DNA from: a virus
DNA length: 49,115 bases
Virus record (IMG/VR): IMGVR_UViG_3300036782_000013
Span: 1-49,115 of that record
Strand: one strand, 5' to 3'
Shown one piece after another: positions 5,420-47,199 of this stretch (position 1 is the stretch's first letter; the number at the start of each line of letters is the position of its first letter). The notes beneath the pieces are model-generated. The model was not told the DNA's origin, made no database searches, and saw only the letters and a list, made by a program, of their open reading frames with translations. Both the position numbers and the translations under genes were made by a program.

Positions 5420-5927
5420 GCTGGGCCTCCTCGGAGTCTTTGAAAAACGCGATCCAGTGAGTGTTTGCCCGTTTACCTGACGGATGCCCGAATGTTGGTT
5501 TCTGGTCGGTCAGTGCGAGAATTTCACTGGTTTTAATCTGCGTTTCGTTCCACTTAAAAATCAGCGTTCCCATTGGTTTCAGCACCCGGAATGCCTCGCT
5601 GAAGCCTTTGGCCAGATCATCGCGCCATGTATCTCGGTTGAGTGCGCCATACTTGGCTCGGAGCCAACTGGTTTCACCGGCAAACTCAAGGTGCGGAGGA
5701 TCGAACACAACCAGGCTAAACTGCTCGTCATCGAATGGCAGTGCGCGGAAGTCCAGCAGCACATCAGGTTTGATATGCAACTCGCGCCCATCACAAAGAA
5801 TGTGGGATTCATCACGGATGTCACCGAACACTACGCGCGAATCGGTGCGGTCGAACCAGAACATGCGGGAGCCGCAGCACATGTCAAGAATGCTTTTGCC
5901 GTCGAGGTTGGTTTCATTTGCTGGCAT
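5412..5927 (-). CDS. Class I SAM-dependent methyltransferase (orphan phage enzyme), 171 aa
   Basis: I start it at the ATG giving MPANETNLDG, which has a CGGAGG ribosome site. Motif I appears as ILDMCCGS (residues 13-20), and DPPH at residues 76-79 matches the motif IV of base or amino methyltransferases. A late helix-strand pair (FRVLKPMGTLIFKW) completes the Rossmann fold. There is no cognate restriction gene nearby, so it is an orphan enzyme that may modify phage DNA against host restriction. The target base cannot be read from sequence. Confidence 0.75.
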   Translation of the reverse strand: MPANETNLDGKSILDMCCGSRMFWFDRTDSRVVFGDIRDESHILCDGRELHIKPDVLLDFRALPFDDEQFSLVVFDPPHLEFAGETSWLRAKYGALNRDTWRDDLAKGFSEAFRVLKPMGTLIFKWNETQIKTSEILALTDQKPTFGHPSGKRANTHWIAFFKDSEEAQHG

Positions 5928-6285
5928 CACGCACCTCCGGGTAGCAGATGTCATCGAAAAACTTCTCAGACACACGCATGTTGAAGTGGTCGAGGCTCAT
6001 CTCTTGGACTTGAAACTTAACTCCAACGATGCCAGTACAACGGTTCACGTAATCACGGTTTTCTTGGTCTTCGGAAACCCATTCCTGAATGGCCTTTGAT
6101 TGGTGTTGTAGGCAACGTAAAGCGCAGTCCATATCGACGAAATGCTCAGCATTAGTGATGCAAGACACAACGTAATACGTGGTAACTTTCGGGCCGTCTG
6201 CTCGTCGTTTCAGTTCACGCTCAACATCGTTCTTTATGTCGGCAAGCTGATAGTCATTTAGCTCTTTGAGGTCGCACTCTTTCAT
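5914..6285 (-). CDS. Hypothetical protein, 123 aa
   Basis: Begins MKECDLKELNDYQLADIK, an N-terminal coiled helix, followed by a mixed alpha/beta region (TTYYVVSCITNAEHFVDMD). A GGAGG site sits 4-5 bp before the start and is shared with the end of the upstream gene. Its 3' end overlaps the methyltransferase start by 14 bp. Function unknown. Confidence 0.6.
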   Translation of the reverse strand: MKECDLKELNDYQLADIKNDVERELKRRADGPKVTTYYVVSCITNAEHFVDMDCALRCLQHQSKAIQEWVSEDQENRDYVNRCTGIVGVKFQVQEMSLDHFNMRVSEKFFDDICYPEVRDASK

Positions 6286-13019: not shown

Positions 13020-13754
13020 TCAAAGCAAAACTGAGTACCAGAAAACGCGTCCAATAATTTCTACTTCGTTAATATCTTTCTCCTCTGGCTCATGTTCTGC
13101 AGCATTGTAACTCCTGATGCTGATTCTGTCGGGGCCGACACGATAAAGAAGCTTGATCCGTTTCCAGCCATCTTGGCTTATAGCGTAGATTTTGCCATCG
13201 ACGATCTGCTTATCATCTGTATTGACCGCAACCGTAGTACCGTCTGGTATGTTTGGCTCCATGCTATTCCCACGAGCAGGGAAGCAGAGCACTCCTTTGC
13301 CATCGGTACTCGCACCAACTCGGCGCAATGTGGCTTTGGAGAATCTCAATTTGAATCCGTTATAGTCTTCTTCGTTATAACTTCCGTCCCCAGCTGCGAG
13401 AGAAATATCTCGCAAAAAAGGCACCTCTACTTCTTCCCTTAGTAAAGGGGTATTGCTATCCCATGAATCAACCTTCTCCCAATCGCTTTCAGGCGGGATT
13501 GTAGAGTCGGGGTGATAAAAGGAAGAAATACCATCCTCGCCATCCTTCATTGGCCCACTTTGACTGCTTAGCCATTCAGGACGCACGTCTAATGCCTTGG
13601 CTATCTCCACAATCTTAGTGGATGTCTTGGCATTGCCGGAAGCTATCTTCTGTATTGCAGCCTGTGACACACCAACTTTTTCAGCTAGTGCGGACTGCGT
13701 CATGTTTTTGGCCGCCATTGCGACTTTTAAGCGTTGAGCAAGAGTCATTTTCAT
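13020..13754 (-). CDS. cI: CI-type prophage repressor, 244 aa
   Basis: This LexA-like repressor has an HTH_3 DNA-binding domain (about residues 5-58, QSALAEKVGVSQAAIQKIASG) and a C-terminal S24 peptidase domain. The self-cleavage site Ala121-Gly122 (LAAGDG), Ser164 (GNSM) and Lys201 (RIKLL) are all present, so RecA-stimulated cleavage during SOS should inactivate it. The serine-lysine spacing of 37 equals that of LexA. I start at the ATG at 13754. A TTG two codons earlier is unlikely. No ribosome site is present, and the predicted pRM start coincides with the ATG, so the mRNA is probably leaderless. Confidence 0.93.
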   Translation of the reverse strand: MKMTLAQRLKVAMAAKNMTQSALAEKVGVSQAAIQKIASGNAKTSTKIVEIAKALDVRPEWLSSQSGPMKDGEDGISSFYHPDSTIPPESDWEKVDSWDSNTPLLREEVEVPFLRDISLAAGDGSYNEEDYNGFKLRFSKATLRRVGASTDGKGVLCFPARGNSMEPNIPDGTTVAVNTDDKQIVDGKIYAISQDGWKRIKLLYRVGPDRISIRSYNAAEHEPEEKDINEVEIIGRVFWYSVLL

Positions 13755-13761
13755 AACCAAG

Positions 13762-25501: not shown

Positions 25502-25912
25502 ATGAGCCTGACACAGAAACAAGAAACATTCTGTCAGGCATACATCGAGACGGGTAATGCTTCTGAGGCTTATCGGACGGCGTATGCTGCTGACCAGATG
25601 AAACCAGAGACCGTCAACAGAAAAGCAAAAGAGCTCTACGATAACGGCAAGATAACGGCAAGGATTAAGGAATTGCAAGGGGAAATCAAGCGGCGGCATA
25701 ATGTCACGGTTGACTCTTTAATTCTCGAGTTAGAAGAGGCTAGGAAAGCAGCGTTAACAGCCGAAACGCCTCAATCGTCTGCAGCCGTGGCAGCGACTAT
25801 GGGAAAGGCCAAACTAACCGGGCTCGATAAGCAGGTGATAGAACTTCACGGTTCACTTGGTCTAAGTATCAATAAACCATTATCGGCGCTATTCGAAGAT
25901 GACAGCGATTAA
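25502..25912 (+). CDS. terS: Terminase small subunit, 136 aa
   Basis: Recognises the packaging site and presents DNA to the large subunit. It shows the Terminase_2 pattern: [20 protein letters not shown] with AYRTAY, a helical middle, and [18 protein letters not shown] start at the ATG at 25502, though a GTG at 25487 is possible. Its stop overlaps the large-subunit start by 14 bp. Confidence 0.9.
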
Positions 25913-36535: not shown

Positions 36536-36739
36536 ATGGTTCATGACCATTCTCCCGGACTAATCGAATGCGTGAATGTTCCCGCAACGATCAGCACCAT
36601 TATTTCATGCGAAATGAACTTAGCGACTCTTCATGACCTTGATACACACTACGGGCTTGAAGACATGTGGCGGCTATTGGAAGTTATTACTGTTCATAAC
36701 TACAACCAGAAATTAATGAACAAGCGGAGTGAGAGCTAA
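36536..36739 (+). CDS. Tail assembly chaperone T-like extension, 67 aa
   Basis: It lies in the -1 frame relative to the preceding gene and has no ribosome site before its first ATG, so it is probably translated as part of a frameshift fusion. The T-region begins at about 36503 in that reading. It ends overlapping the tape measure start. Its C-terminal region (LEDMWRLLEVITVHNYN) is helical. Confidence 0.75.
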   Translation: MVHDHSPGLIECVNVPATISTIISCEMNLATLHDLDTHYGLEDMWRLLEVITVHNYNQKLMNKRSES

Positions 36740-38565
36740 TGGCGACTATCATTGATGCTTTGGTGGTCACTCTTGGCCTGGATGCATCCGGTTTCAAAAA
36801 AGGACAGGAAGAGACCAAAGAGAGTCTCGATAAGACCCGAAAAAACTCTGAACAGACAGCAAAAGATATGGAGGCCGCAGGTAAAAGAGCGGCCTCCTTC
36901 TTTGGATCCATTCGCACAGAATTGCTAGCGCTGGTTGGCGTAACACTTTCAGCCAATGGCATTAAAAACTTCATCACTAACACCGCTAATAGTCTGCAGC
37001 AACTAGGCATCAACTCCAAAGCATTAGACATGTCTGCCAGGTCGCTGGACGGATGGGGGCGTGCTGCAGAGGCTGCAGGATCAAGTGCTGAGAAGATGCA
37101 GGGGACTCTGTCAGGCTTTCAGGATGTGCTGACCCAGATTAGGACTGGTGGAGCTTCCGATAGCCCGTTATTTTCTGCTCTAGCATCGTTTGGTGGCGCG
37201 ACAGGTGCTAACTTCGACTATCAGAAAGATAATTCCGAAGCCATCATGCGCAAGATTGCGCAAAACTGGAACAAGTTAAACGCTGATGCAAAGCGACGTT
37301 TTGGGGGCATGTTTGGGTTCGATAATGCCACGCAACAGGCTTTAAGCAGTGGGCAGTTAGTCACTGATGCAGGCCGGTTTGAAAAAACATCGAAAGCTAC
37401 AGAGGATGCTACGAGAAAAGCCGCAGAATTAAACCGGCAACTCGTAGCTATGAAGCAAAATTTTTCCGCTGCATCCCAGGTGCTTTTAACTGCATTAATT
37501 CCTTATATCGAAAAGCTGATCCCTCTCATAGAGCAGTTTGGTGTATGGATATCAAATCACGGCCCAGAGATACAGCAATTCTTTAAAGATACCGCAGATA
37601 TCATACATAAGGTTTCAGATGCTGCTGGCGGTTGGCAGAACATCATGGAAGGACTTCTGGTTTTTATCGGAGGGAAATGGCTGCTGGGAATGATTTCCGC
37701 TATCGGCGGTGTGAAAGGTGCTCTGGTAGCGCTATCGAGAGTAAGCCTTATCGCCGGGCTAGTTGAGTTGCAAAAATATGCAGAAGTGTTGGAAAAAAAA
37801 TATGCATGGCTGACAAATAATCCGGTAGCAAACACGCTAAATGACTTGCCAGGAATGGATAAGACTGAAACCTACGGGAAAATGTTTCACGACTGGGTGC
37901 AGGAAAAAACCGGCATAAATCTTCCTAGAGCTGATGGGTATGGGCAAGTCAATCAAGAAGGTCAGCGTTCTCAGCCAGCGAATGCGCCAAGGGGCATTAG
38001 AAATAACAACCCAGGAAACCTTAACTTTGTTGGGCAAGCTGGAGCATCAAAAGAGCGTGGTGAAAACGGAAGGTTTGCTGTTTTTGGGTCAATGACGGAT
38101 GGAGTTGCAGCGCTTTACAAGCAGATCCAACTCTACTTTAAGCGTGGCACTGACACTATTTCCGAGATCGTCAATAAGTATGCCCCAGCAAGTGACAATA
38201 ACAATGTGATGGCTTACATCAACTCGCTAGTCAAATCCACAGGGAAGGGAGCGAATGAGTCACTTAGCTCCGCTGATATGTCCACAATATTCAATCTCCT
38301 AAAAGGTATCATTAGCCATGAAAATGGAAAAGGATATGTCAGTGATGACGAGATTATGCGCGGCATACAGGTTGGAGCAAAGGCAAGCATGCAGCGTGGC
38401 TCTGGCAGTTATGCTGGCCCAACTGGGAATAAGACCGAAATCCATATAGGCAAGGCGGAATTTGTAACTTCAGCTAACAATCAGCAAGCCCTATCTAAAG
38501 ACATTGAGCGCGGAGCTGGACGGTCAAGCATGCTGACCCCATCACTTACTGGTCAGGGTGGTTAA
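36739..38565 (+). CDS. Tape measure protein with C-terminal muralytic-type domain, 608 aa
   Basis: It sets tail length. The N-terminus has helices (LGLDASGFKKGQEETKESL), the middle has the SARSLDGWGRAAEAAGSSAE segment, and around residues 280-365 there are hydrophobic stretches. At about 410-520 the sequence PRGIRNNNPGNLNFVGQAGA and GRFAVFGSMTDGVAALYKQI resembles a phage-associated peptidoglycan hydrolase domain (RNNNPGNL motif), which would help DNA cross the cell wall. It is short for a contractile tail, suggesting a tail of less than about 100 nm. Confidence 0.88.
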   Translation: MATIIDALVVTLGLDASGFKKGQEETKESLDKTRKNSEQTAKDMEAAGKRAASFFGSIRTELLALVGVTLSANGIKNFITNTANSLQQLGINSKALDMSARSLDGWGRAAEAAGSSAEKMQGTLSGFQDVLTQIRTGGASDSPLFSALASFGGATGANFDYQKDNSEAIMRKIAQNWNKLNADAKRRFGGMFGFDNATQQALSSGQLVTDAGRFEKTSKATEDATRKAAELNRQLVAMKQNFSAASQVLLTALIPYIEKLIPLIEQFGVWISNHGPEIQQFFKDTADIIHKVSDAAGGWQNIMEGLLVFIGGKWLLGMISAIGGVKGALVALSRVSLIAGLVELQKYAEVLEKKYAWLTNNPVANTLNDLPGMDKTETYGKMFHDWVQEKTGINLPRADGYGQVNQEGQRSQPANAPRGIRNNNPGNLNFVGQAGASKERGENGRFAVFGSMTDGVAALYKQIQLYFKRGTDTISEIVNKYAPASDNNNVMAYINSLVKSTGKGANESLSSADMSTIFNLLKGIISHENGKGYVSDDEIMRGIQVGAKASMQRGSGSYAGPTGNKTEIHIGKAEFVTSANNQQALSKDIERGAGRSSMLTPSLTGQGG

Positions 38566-39687: not shown

Positions 39688-40541
39688 CATACAAAAAACG
39701 CAGCCTTAAGTTTCAGTTCACACTTAAAAGCGGTGCCTTTGACGATCGCGGTGGAAATATACTTACGATAGATAATATCAAGGCCGAACTAGAGGTTGGG
39801 GCTTATGGCGGCGTAACTGGAACAACTCTTGATGCCAGGGTATATGGCCTAAGCATGGAAAAAATGGCCCTCCTGAGTTACAAGGGAATCCAGCTAAATG
39901 GCGCAAAGCAAAACATGATTAAAATTTGGGCTGACGAAGAACCTATATTTTTTGGTTCCATCATGAACTGCTTTGCAGACATGAACCAGATGCCCGACGC
40001 ACCACTGCACATAATGGCGACAGCAACGGGGTTTGAACAATCTGTGATTGCTGCTGATTTTTCCGCTAGGGGAAGCGTATCGGTAGCTGACATCATCACT
40101 TCGATCGCCAAACCAATTGGGTATACGGTTGTAAATAATGGGGTCAAGGATGTAAGAGATAACCCCTACTACAGTGGTGACCCAATAAGCCAGATTAGGC
40201 AATGTGCAAGAGATGCAGGTATAGAAATTGATATCAGTTTAATGGTTATCTCTATTTGGACCAGAGGCGGCAGAAAGGATGAGGTCAAGCCTTTTATCTC
40301 CCCAGAGTATGGTCTGATTGGGTATCCCGTTTTTAATAATTATGGCATTAGCTTTTCATGCATCTATAGCAACTTGATTATCAGGGGCCGGGAACTTGAG
40401 CTGGTTACTAGCCTTCCTAACGCTTCAGGGACGTATACCATTCAGGCCGCAAAACATTACCTCTCCACATGGACGGAAGGTGGCCCATGGATGACGACAG
40501 GATGGGCCAGTATTGGGCCTATAACAGGAGGGATGCAATGA
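39684..40541 (+). CDS. Baseplate hub protein (gpD/gp44-like), 285 aa
   Basis: The N-terminal beta-barrel (LKFQFTLKSGAFDDRGGNIL, then AELEVGAYGGVTG) and later GDPISQIRQCARDAGIEIDI are features of hub proteins that form a trimer below the tube and hold the spike. It overlaps the spike gene by 4 bp. Confidence 0.75.
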   Translation: MTYKKRSLKFQFTLKSGAFDDRGGNILTIDNIKAELEVGAYGGVTGTTLDARVYGLSMEKMALLSYKGIQLNGAKQNMIKIWADEEPIFFGSIMNCFADMNQMPDAPLHIMATATGFEQSVIAADFSARGSVSVADIITSIAKPIGYTVVNNGVKDVRDNPYYSGDPISQIRQCARDAGIEIDISLMVISIWTRGGRKDEVKPFISPEYGLIGYPVFNNYGISFSCIYSNLIIRGRELELVTSLPNASGTYTIQAAKHYLSTWTEGGPWMTTGWASIGPITGGMQ

Positions 40542-41164
40542 GCACTAACTTTTTTACGGCTCGGCCACAAGACACCACATCAGATGCTAATGTCCAGGAA
40601 TTTCTGATGTATCAGTTCCTAATGCGACAGTCTTTTATAAATTTAGTGGTTGTGGTTGGAGTTTCAGATGATGGAAACTCCGTTGATGTAAGGCCAGTGG
40701 TTCATGGCTTCACAGGAACAGGGGATAAGATAGAAAAGGGAATTGTGTTTGGCATCCCAGTCTGGCGACTTCAGCGCGGATCCAGTGCGGTTAAAATGAA
40801 GCCAGTAATCGGTGACATAGGATTGGCGGCCTGTTGTGATAGAGACATAACCAACGTCAAAAATACAAAGGCCCCAAGCTTGCCTGGCTCCAATCGCGCC
40901 CATAGCCAAGCCGATGCAATTTATCTAGGCGGAGTTCTTAATCATGAACCATCTCAATATATTGATTTTGCAGATGGGGAAATAACTATCGTATCGCCAG
41001 CAAAAGTGCGAATCAATGCCCCAATATCATCATTTGAGGGTGATGTTGAAGTCACTGGTAAAGTGACGGCAAATGGCGACGTTGTAGGTGCGGGAATTTC
41101 TCTATCAACACATGTCCACGGAGGAGTAGAATCGGGAGGTTCAAATACTTCGGGGCCAGAATAG
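40538..41164 (+). CDS. Baseplate spike protein, Gp138-like, 208 aa
   Basis: The OB-fold-type N-terminal domain (INLVVVVGVSDDGNSVDVRP) is followed by a triple-stranded beta helix (EGDVEVTGKVTANGDVVGAG) and the tip sequence THVHGGVESGG, where a His-x-His binds a metal at the point of phage spikes. I start at the ATG at 40538, which overlaps the hub stop. Confidence 0.85.
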   Translation: MSTNFFTARPQDTTSDANVQEFLMYQFLMRQSFINLVVVVGVSDDGNSVDVRPVVHGFTGTGDKIEKGIVFGIPVWRLQRGSSAVKMKPVIGDIGLAACCDRDITNVKNTKAPSLPGSNRAHSQADAIYLGGVLNHEPSQYIDFADGEITIVSPAKVRINAPISSFEGDVEVTGKVTANGDVVGAGISLSTHVHGGVESGGSNTSGPE

Positions 41165-41165
41165 T

Positions 41166-41747
41166 ATGTTAATCAAGCATGGTATTATTTCTTTATTCCT
41201 AATGTTTTCATCCAGTTATGCTGCTGATTTTGTGAATACAACCCTTTCAAATGGGGTGAAGTTAAGTGTCGCATGCTCTCAAAGTTTGATTGGGGGGAAT
41301 TCTGGTTCACTTTCACCATGCATAAAAGTTGTTGAAAACGACCCAGATGATGAATCGCCTTATGTGGCTGTAACATTTGGGACGGAAGATTTTAGAGCGG
41401 TCGAGAACGTAATTGGAAAGGCCTTCATGATTGTCTACGACCGAGGAAACATAACGGTACCAGTAGACAAGATCATCCCTGCATATAATGGCGGTATGGT
41501 TGCCATGTATGGGAAGGGCGTATCAAGTGAAATATTACATTCAAAGTATGTTTATCTGATTATTCCTGGCGGCAAGAAGGTGGACATAAAGTCCAGCATT
41601 TCCTCAAACAACAAGGCCGCCAGATGCAAGGAGGAGACAGATCAGTTTATGTCCTCAAATGAGCAGTTTATGTATCCAGACCCATCATGGGCCGCCAATA
41701 GTGCCAGCATTCATTCCAAATATTACTTAGATTGCATAAACAGATAG
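41166..41747 (+). CDS. Secreted hypothetical protein inserted in the baseplate genes (possible moron), 193 aa
   Basis: A classic signal peptide (MLIKHGIISLFLMFSSSYA, cleavage before ADF) leads into a protein with four cysteines after cleavage, enough for two disulfides in the periplasm. It lies between the spike and the gp25-like genes, has no role expected in tail assembly, and is followed by a strong terminator. A weak promoter (TTCAAA-N16-TAGTAT) may lie upstream. I do not recognise a family. Superinfection exclusion or host-surface alteration is possible. Confidence 0.75.
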   Translation: MLIKHGIISLFLMFSSSYAADFVNTTLSNGVKLSVACSQSLIGGNSGSLSPCIKVVENDPDDESPYVAVTFGTEDFRAVENVIGKAFMIVYDRGNITVPVDKIIPAYNGGMVAMYGKGVSSEILHSKYVYLIIPGGKKVDIKSSISSNNKAARCKEETDQFMSSNEQFMYPDPSWAANSASIHSKYYLDCINR

Positions 41748-41762
41748 AACATCATTGAAACC

Positions 41763-41785
41763 AACCCGCTCCGGCGGGTTTTTTT
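41763..41785 (+). terminator. Terminator after the inserted secreted-protein gene
   Basis: AACCCGC-TCCG-GCGGGTT is a perfect 7-bp stem followed by a run of T (to 41785). It would end a transcript of the secreted-protein gene, while late transcription must pass it. Confidence 0.85.
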
Positions 41786-41800: not shown

Positions 41801-42160
41801 ATGATCACGAAGTCGATGCTTCTGAACACTGACACCTGGGATTTGCAGCTTGATGATTTCGGCAACATAGCTCAGACAGAAAACCCTTATGCAGTAGCTC
41901 AAGATGTTGCGACTTCTTGCAGTACCTTCTCGGGGGAATGCTGGTATGACACAACGCTAGGCTTGCCGTATTACGAGAAGATTCTAGGCCACTGGCCCGG
42001 CACTCAATATGTAAATACCAAGTTGCAAACCGAAGCCAAAAAGCTCCCATACGTCCAATCAGCAACCTGCTCAATCATCATTGGCCAGTCAGACCGGAAA
42101 GCATCTGGCGTGATGGTCATCACAGACACGAACAACGTAGAAAGCACCATTCAACTCTGA
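41801..42160 (+). CDS. Baseplate wedge protein, gp25/W-like, 119 aa
   Basis: The sequence (TWDLQLDDFGNIAQTENPYA, then SGECWYDTTLGLPYYEKILG) matches gpW/gp25-like baseplate proteins, which initiate sheath assembly. I start at the ATG at 41801 because CGGAGAAA lies just upstream. Confidence 0.85.
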   Translation: MITKSMLLNTDTWDLQLDDFGNIAQTENPYAVAQDVATSCSTFSGECWYDTTLGLPYYEKILGHWPGTQYVNTKLQTEAKKLPYVQSATCSIIIGQSDRKASGVMVITDTNNVESTIQL

Positions 42161-45342: not shown

Positions 45343-47199
45343 ATGTCCTTTTCAGATACAGCAGCCGCAAAGAAATATGCCGCCATAGCCGAGGTGGCGG
45401 CGGGTGAGGCAAAGTCATTTGCCGAAGATGCACGTCAGGCAGAGAATTTCTCAATAGAAGCCAAGGCCAGCGCTGATGATGCCTCTCGGTCCGCCCAAGA
45501 TGCTGATATTTTCAGGGGGCAAGCGGAAGAATCGGCAGCTAACGCGGCAGAGTCAAAAATATCAGCAGAAGATTCAGCAGAGAGCGCAGCGGCATCTGCT
45601 CAAATAGCGCAAAACATTTCGGATGCAAACACCTATTACACCACACCAGAAGATCCAAATGGAACAATCGCTGGATTGGCTGGCACTCCGAGTGGAGACA
45701 TGTTTAGGGTCGCTCTGGGTCCTGGTAGTGGATTTAAATATTATCTCAATAGCAGCGGTACTGCCATTGAGAAGGCATCAACCCCTGGTGATGATGTAGT
45801 ATTGCAACTTAAATACAGAGTAAAGGAAATACCATTAATTTTAAACAGTGAAACAACTTATCCGGTTGTATGTAAAAATGGCGGGGCACCTCTATTTATT
45901 GATAAAAATAAAATAGGTGGGATTGGATTGAATGATGCCCTTCATGGAGACATAAAAACCAGGCTTGGAAACACCCTCCTTGGTTCGCAAGGTGGAACAC
46001 TGACAAGTGAGCTAATTTGGCCTGCATTTGTGAAGAACAAATCCACTTATGCATGGTTTAATGATAAAACACTCTATCTTTATGATATTGCGCTCACAAA
46101 CCCAAATGCTTTTAATCTTTCGCAAGCCAAATCATTTGCTCCACTGATTACCAATGGTAAATACCTTTATCGTTGGCGTGCTGCGAGGGCAACATTAGAT
46201 GTGGGGACTAATACCCGGAAAAAGGCCCTTTGCATCGGTGATAGTTACATGGATTTTTCCACAATACCGCAAATTATCGCAAATTGGATGTATGGACTAT
46301 ATGGGAAATCTGCTGACGGATGGGCCAGTGTGTGTGGTCCGGTTAGTGGGCGAGTCATGTATCTAAACTCAATGTCTTTCTCTTTTTCTGGGTTTACACC
46401 ATGGAGTATCGGAGGTCCAGATACTGAAGTTCCGCCTTATGGTTGTGGTATTGACGGTTACTGTATATATACTAGCGGTTCAACAGCAACAGCAACACTT
46501 TCTGGATTTGATGGAACTCGCATTACTATTTATTACAGGGATTCAGGAAGCTTCAGGTATAGAATTGATGGTGGTACCTGGACAACTGTAACAACTTCCG
46601 GAACCGGCGCTCAAAGCAAAACGGAAATAACTGGCCTTTCCGCTGGTACTCACTCAATAGATATAGATACCACTGTTAATACGGGGGTTGTGGCGCTGCA
46701 CGGCTTTTATGTTAAGAACTGGAACAAGCCAGGGATTGAGCTTCACAAGTGCGGCCATGCTGGGGCGCGTGGGATACAATACTTAAATAAAATAAGCCCT
46801 CACATTCAGTACTATGCTCAAGAAATAAATCCAGATTTGGTTTTCATTATCTTGGGGACAAACGATTATAGGAATGCGACCAGTAATGTTACTAACTTCA
46901 TAGCCGGTGTTGACTCAATAGTACAGGCGTTCAGGGCGGCGTCTTCTGATGTTGGAATTGTTTTTATTGCTCCTCCAGACACAAATGGTGTACCAGCAAA
47001 CTCCGCCACTCCGTTAACAGTGTTTGTTAACGCAGCAAGGGTGTATGCAGTGGCAAACGGTATAGAATTTGTTGATATTAATGCAATCATGTCCACCTGG
47101 GCGGAAGAAAACTTGTTGGGACAGTTCGTAGATGATCTGCATCTGAATGATGCCGGAGCTACTGGGTTGTTAAATACCATGAAAGACAAATTGATATAA
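45343..47199 (+). CDS. Tail fiber with SGNH/GDSL hydrolase domain, 618 aa
   Basis: The first ~100 residues are an Ala-rich coiled coil (AKKYAAIAEVAAGEAKSFAE). The hydrolase core begins with GDSYMD (Gly299-Asp300-Ser301, nucleophile), has GTND at 505-508, and ends with DDLH (597-600) supplying the catalytic Asp and His. Between blocks I and III lies a carbohydrate-binding-like insertion (about residues 380-455). The enzyme should remove acyl groups, likely acetyl, from a surface polysaccharide during adsorption. The target is unknown. Confidence 0.9.
   Translation: MSFSDTAAAKKYAAIAEVAAGEAKSFAEDARQAENFSIEAKASADDASRSAQDADIFRGQAEESAANAAESKISAEDSAESAAASAQIAQNISDANTYYTTPEDPNGTIAGLAGTPSGDMFRVALGPGSGFKYYLNSSGTAIEKASTPGDDVVLQLKYRVKEIPLILNSETTYPVVCKNGGAPLFIDKNKIGGIGLNDALHGDIKTRLGNTLLGSQGGTLTSELIWPAFVKNKSTYAWFNDKTLYLYDIALTNPNAFNLSQAKSFAPLITNGKYLYRWRAARATLDVGTNTRKKALCIGDSYMDFSTIPQIIANWMYGLYGKSADGWASVCGPVSGRVMYLNSMSFSFSGFTPWSIGGPDTEVPPYGCGIDGYCIYTSGSTATATLSGFDGTRITIYYRDSGSFRYRIDGGTWTTVTTSGTGAQSKTEITGLSAGTHSIDIDTTVNTGVVALHGFYVKNWNKPGIELHKCGHAGARGIQYLNKISPHIQYYAQEINPDLVFIILGTNDYRNATSNVTNFIAGVDSIVQAFRAASSDVGIVFIAPPDTNGVPANSATPLTVFVNAARVYAVANGIEFVDINAIMSTWAEENLLGQFVDDLHLNDAGATGLLNTMKDKLI

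Follow-up and report, generated by a model that had tools for sequence, protein, structure and literature searches.

The junction of the spike and wedge genes

The DNA analysed here (hereafter, the window) comprises 49,115 bases and represents a complete virus record. The integrase gene (254-1540) and the gene for a CI-type repressor with an S24 peptidase domain (13023-13760, minus strand) indicate that the phage is temperate, and its tail genes are of the contractile type, with a Pam3-like plug, an E217-type hub and a gpV-Apex spike; judging from this gene repertoire, the window phage is a temperate myophage. Among named phages, Pantoea phage PA-1 comes closest, at about 75% DNA identity across 19% of the right half. 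Despite the contractile tail, the region of the terminase small subunit (approximately 25508-25835) is about 76% identical to ES18-like Salmonella siphophages, a sign of mosaic origin. A tail-end gene at 45343-47199 encodes a protein with a GDSL-like lipase/acylhydrolase C-terminal part and is possibly a receptor-modifying tail protein.

The locus of interest is on the plus strand. The gpV-like baseplate spike gene with the Apex motif (40538-41164; Pfam Apex, 4.8e-7), which was aligned with the spikes of PA-1 and of an E. coli prophage, is followed by a gene for a predicted exported protein of 193 amino acids (41166-41747; hereafter, the cargo gene), with the start codon 1 nt after the spike stop. 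The last 60 nt or so of the spike gene are presumed to be the leader of the cargo gene as well, and GGGG (41152-41155), located within the last spike codons 10 nt before the cargo ATG, is a possible ribosome-binding site. Downstream of the cargo gene, there is an intrinsic terminator, AACCCGCTCCGGCGGGTTTTTTT (41763-41785), that consists of a hairpin and a T-run. Next comes the baseplate wedge/sheath initiator gene (41801-42160), for which the ORF is listed from 41786 but homology places the start at 41801; it is 97% identical to the homologue from one relative (L040) and 66-73% identical to those from most others.

The N-terminus of the cargo protein reads MLIKHGIISLFLMFSSSYA|ADF, where the part before the bar (41166-41222) is a signal peptide by eye and passes a crude signal-peptide rule, and four cysteines (C37, C52, C154 and C190) are located in the mature part, in agreement with what had been noticed from the sequence alone. 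We infer a soluble periplasmic protein that would contain two disulfides. The earlier impression that it belongs to no recognised family held as well: no credible relatives were detected in Pfam, PHROGs, NCBIfam, PADLOC or the PDB, nor by tblastn in 50,697 phage records and 72,556 plasmids. Scans of viral contigs and of the species-genome collection added a single relative, a 96% identical copy in the same position in one IMG/VR contig (L001). The two cargo genes differ by 7 nonsynonymous and 3 synonymous changes, with no indel and with the ORF intact, which indicates that this is a real gene. The respective counts for the spike are 2 and 7, so that, judging from these small numbers, the cargo protein sequence appears to change faster than the neighbouring spike. 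Structure prediction, with two sequences in the alignment, yielded a poor model of mixed alpha/beta composition (pLDDT 50), because relatives are too few. A fold search with this low-confidence model produced no match at E <= 0.001; antibody-like folds appeared at high E only and were disregarded.

Contents and edges of the slot

We surveyed about 70 distinct related loci (72 after removal of near-duplicates) for the contents of the slot between the spike and wedge genes. The slot is empty in 28 of the 72, with the spike stop codon followed by the terminator and then by the wedge gene, and with about 36 nt between the spike stop and the wedge start. Such empty slots were found in the E. coli 1506 prophage, in many IMG/VR contigs and in PA-1, an isolated phage that lacks the cargo gene. 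The sequence-only reading had described the cargo as an accessory gene inserted in a normally conserved order of baseplate genes, with its own terminator. The insertion is borne out by the flanks, which are an Apex spike and a wedge homologue, and by the 28 distinct empty loci, and the gene is indeed accessory: it is not conserved in all relatives, and elsewhere the slot houses other families. The terminator, in contrast, does not belong to the cargo gene. In the empty slots, the same terminator (AACCCGCTCCGGCGGGTTTTTT) starts at the spike stop codon itself, that is, it occupies the same place in relatives without the gene, and it marks the right edge of the insertion. A spike-alignment scan of species genomes revealed no relatives. 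Five loci (L062, L077, L083, L107 and L047) have slots of about 540-580 nt that contain neither an abutting exported gene nor the hexamer described below; they possibly hold decayed cargo or an RNA.

The first gene behind the spike was taken from all filled slots, which gave 37 distinct proteins in 19 BLAST groups; a further family (L166/L169) was found later. When only the clearly envelope-directed first genes are counted, there are about 15 unrelated families. The crude signal-peptide rule was passed by 33 of the 37 slot proteins, compared with 9 of 109 control genes, which were other genes from the window, from PA-1 and from the E. coli prophage; given that the rule is crude and the families are not fully independent, this enrichment is a strong pattern rather than an exact statistic. 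Among the occupants are periplasmic-looking soluble proteins with 2, 4 or 6 cysteines, lipobox lipoproteins (the lip206 family, L041/L042) and small membrane proteins (L040, L087 and L063), and the number of cysteines in the mature part is even in nearly all slot proteins. The approximately 15 envelope-directed families have no match in Pfam and, in PHROGs, are either missing or annotated as 'unknown function'; phrog_26209, 13007, 22446 and 1848, all with the latter annotation, contain other occupants of the same slot, and the window protein is in none of them. In most filled slots, the distance from the spike stop to the cargo start is at most 10 nt, and in nearly all cassettes the start codon overlaps or abuts it.

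A cargo family of 122 amino acids gave a confident small helical model (pLDDT 83), for which there was no PDB or BFVD match at E <= 0.001; a relationship of helical cargo to Rap1a/Tai-like immunity proteins was considered and found no support in Pfam, PDB sequence searches or the fold search. Likewise, hhalign gave no support to a common fold of the window protein with the cargo of L055 and L166/L169, which by eye resembles IalB or VasI. Strict pairing of cargo families with a spike or hub type was sought and not found. One cargo family can sit behind spikes and hubs that are only about 40-60% identical, which gives no support to the idea that the cargo has a cognate partner in the spike or hub of its own phage.

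Several long slots (L041, L111, L038 and others) carry genes for an Arc-like repressor, a P22-type antirepressor or KilA/ANT behind the exported gene; by gene content, these are immunity-I-like regions embedded in the baseplate operon. In L112, two long ORFs overlap on opposite strands, one on the plus strand (5654-5941) that matches phrog_29546 (2.7e-35) and one on the minus strand (5726-5929) that weakly matches zinc-ribbon families; similar overlapping pairs are present in L038 and L041. A distant relative of the lip206 lipoprotein is encoded in the temperate Yersinia phage vB_YenM_29.18 (L171:4974-5606), between a baseplate gene and a tail fibre gene, that is, in another place of the tail module and not in the spike/wedge slot.

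The edges of the exchanged unit can be mapped on near-identical pairs of filled and empty loci, a comparison of the kind that had been proposed for the window and relatives lacking its gene. L057, with a 204-aa lipoprotein cargo, and L073, with an empty slot, are 99.64% identical across 5,036 nt. This identity ends at position 5316 of L057, 33 nt before its spike stop; the sequences are then unrelated and become alike again (97.7% identity) from position 5967, the terminator. The pairs L007/L085 and L066/L061 have the same edges at lower identity. These boundaries imply that the exchanged unit takes in approximately the last dozen codons of the spike gene. On the right side, the window and L040 become homologous again at 41763, where the terminator begins. 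Between these two phages, the entire segment 36117-41762 of the window, from the tail chaperone through the tape measure, hub and spike to the cargo, is exchanged as one block (identities of 63% for the chaperone, 37% for the N-terminal part of the tape measure, 41% for the hub and 47% for the spike), with nearly identical genes on either side (99% for the tube and 97% for the wedge). We consider it highly probable that the swappable unit consists of the spike tail with a promoter-like element and the exported gene, in other words, that it has the anatomy of a cassette and a moron.

A conserved hexamer in the spike tail

The promoter-like element is the hexamer TA(G/C)AAT, which is present in all 25 distinct loci with abutting cargo (start no more than 10 nt from the spike stop), and in none of the 28 empty loci or the 16 loci with non-abutting cargo. 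It is located 38-44 nt before the end of the spike gene and 35-40 nt before the cargo start codon, and is encoded by the Val-Glu/Gln-Ser codons GTA-(G/C)AA-TCN of the spike. Where an empty spike has the same amino acids, they are encoded differently (by GTC-GAG-AGT in L044, for example). In an alignment of 23 cargo-bearing sequences, the two wobble bases of the hexamer do not vary at all, whereas the other wobble positions nearby range from 0.1 to 1.0 bits. A ribosome-binding-like sequence lies between the hexamer and the cargo start, and the spacing is normal for a -10 box with a short leader. A putative promoter is thus the natural reading of the hexamer, and the cargo is probably expressed from a promoter of its own.

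In the window, the hexamer is TAGAAT (41127-41132, within Val-Glu-Ser codons of the spike), and 16 nt upstream of it is a weak -35-like TCAACA (41105-41110, within Ser-Thr codons), which came from the promoter scan. Across phages, the -35 shows no conservation other than that required by the S-T-H codons. Moreover, a plain consensus promoter scan found 17 sites where 28.8 are expected by chance, so that, as stand-alone evidence for 41105-41132, it performs no better than chance; the promoter there draws its weight from the cross-phage comparison only. The cargo-specific hexamer is promoter-like, in keeping with the early suggestion that the gene perhaps has a promoter. As the spike tail moves together with the cassette, the 25 hexamer sites cannot be counted as independent events. 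This opens the way for a different explanation, in which the hexamer does not act as a promoter: it would be either an ancestral relic or an anchor for recombination, carried along with the cassette as part of the spike tail. Under such a scenario, however, the neighbouring wobble positions should not have drifted while the two within the hexamer did not, and an anchor should stay conserved as a block; we therefore regard it as unlikely.

Possible roles of the exported cargo

The nearest precedent comes from P22-like phages, whose 'ant moron', located between genes 16 and 9 of the late operon, is a variable slot that holds mnt, arc, ant and the exclusion gene sieA (PMC2629481). As in the present case, it is a single variable slot of the late operon that is empty in some relatives and holds antirepressor genes together with, in P22, an envelope exclusion gene; the mnt, arc and ant genes are absent from the slot of the window and present in the same slot of L041 and L111, where Arc/Ant genes come behind the exported gene. 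Unlike the ant moron, the slot described here belongs to contractile-tail phages and lies at the spike/wedge site, and the product of its first gene is almost always exported; this gene generally abuts the stop codon of the spike and brings along an exchanged 3' end of the spike gene. Thus, morons and ant-moron-like slots are already known; what is new is the site, the nearly uniformly exported first gene and the exchanged 3' end of the preceding gene that carries the presumed promoter of the cargo. A literature search of open-licence PMC papers found no description of a spike/wedge slot for exported cargo.

Exclusion proteins from several unrelated phages target the parts of an incoming phage that pass through the envelope. 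SieA, HK97 gp15 and TP-J34 Ltp are envelope proteins, diverse in sequence, that are expressed by prophages and block DNA injection (PMC10883804, PMC3952083); P22 SieA acts on ejection proteins, and Ltp and gp15 act in connection with the tape measure (PMC10883804). No homology of any of these to the window protein was found, and SieA is an inner-membrane protein and Ltp a lipoprotein, whereas the window protein is predicted to be soluble and periplasmic. In this last respect, it resembles Spackle (gp61.3) of T4, a small periplasmic protein that loses its signal by cleavage, contains a disulfide and excludes superinfecting phages via the gp5 spike lysozyme (PMC7677548). Spackle, however, is an alpha-helical bundle encoded by an early gene of a lytic phage, and the window protein has no sequence match to it in the PDB; its mixed alpha/beta model is not an all-helical bundle, and being of low confidence, makes the fold part of this comparison weak.

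The replaced last codons of the spike would supply the -10-like element and the ribosome-binding site of the cargo. In a repressed prophage, a short transcript could begin in the spike tail, encode the exported protein and end at the terminator without reaching the remaining genes of the tail operon. In the periplasm, the protein would bind the penetrating parts of an incoming related phage, namely, the spike, the hub, the tape measure or its wall-cleaving domain, and stop penetration or DNA entry. The tape measure of the window (36739-38565) has no Pfam match and contains the segment RGIRNNNPGNL, which resembles a motif of virion muralytic domains; if active, this region would be an obvious target for an exported inhibitor.

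The ant-moron precedent and the exclusion proteins known to act on envelope-crossing parts make superinfection exclusion in the envelope the likeliest role of the cargo, at slightly less than an even chance, and the presence of Arc, P22 antirepressor and KilA/ANT genes in the same slot counts in its favour. Against it, we found no link of the window protein to any exclusion protein, either in sequence searches or in the fold search with the pLDDT 50 model, and even the confidently modelled cargo family lacks a structural match; the tolerance of one cargo family for divergent spikes and hubs speaks against strict pairing with a tail protein; and the coupling of the cargo start to the spike stop would suit late expression too. 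Indeed, if the cargo is translated together with the spike through the abutting start codon, with the help of the ribosome-binding-like sequence within the spike codons, it could act late in infection, for instance, by shielding the cell from the wall-cleaving parts of the phage's own tail, by delaying lysis or by excluding phages that arrive late. We find such a late lytic function quite improbable, given that both the conserved hexamer and the terminator suggest separate transcription and that the gene is missing from many phages.

The main rival to superinfection exclusion retains the same moron cassette and assigns to the exported protein a role in lysogenic conversion that serves the host cell, in envelope stress, competition or survival in an animal or plant. 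Bor and Lom of phage lambda are classic examples of lysogenic conversion, the anatomy would be the same, and exported cargo of diverse sequence suits any envelope trait. However, none of the scanned cargo families matches a known virulence or host-fitness family, and the slot is shared with antirepressor genes of the immunity type, so that lysogenic conversion appears rather unlikely. The complete explanation, in which a swappable moron cassette in the baseplate operon encodes an exported exclusion protein made by the prophage, we rate at even odds of being right. Generalised to the whole family of loci, it would make the spike/wedge junction a dedicated exchange port for envelope-acting anti-phage proteins, and its occupants a previously undescribed reservoir of periplasmic superinfection-exclusion factors, which we advance as a tentative proposal.

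Whichever role applies, a single defined position in temperate phages of a common type gathers about 15 unrelated families of exported proteins, nearly all of unknown function. Exchanging the tail end of the preceding gene for a presumably promoter-bearing one is a neat way into a tightly packed structural operon, and if the exchange port is real, the C-terminal codons of the spike double as the promoter and ribosome-binding site of the cargo. Because some filled and empty phages are nearly identical, the function can be tested directly, and the slot offers a ready-made set of candidate proteins that may protect the bacterial envelope from phages.
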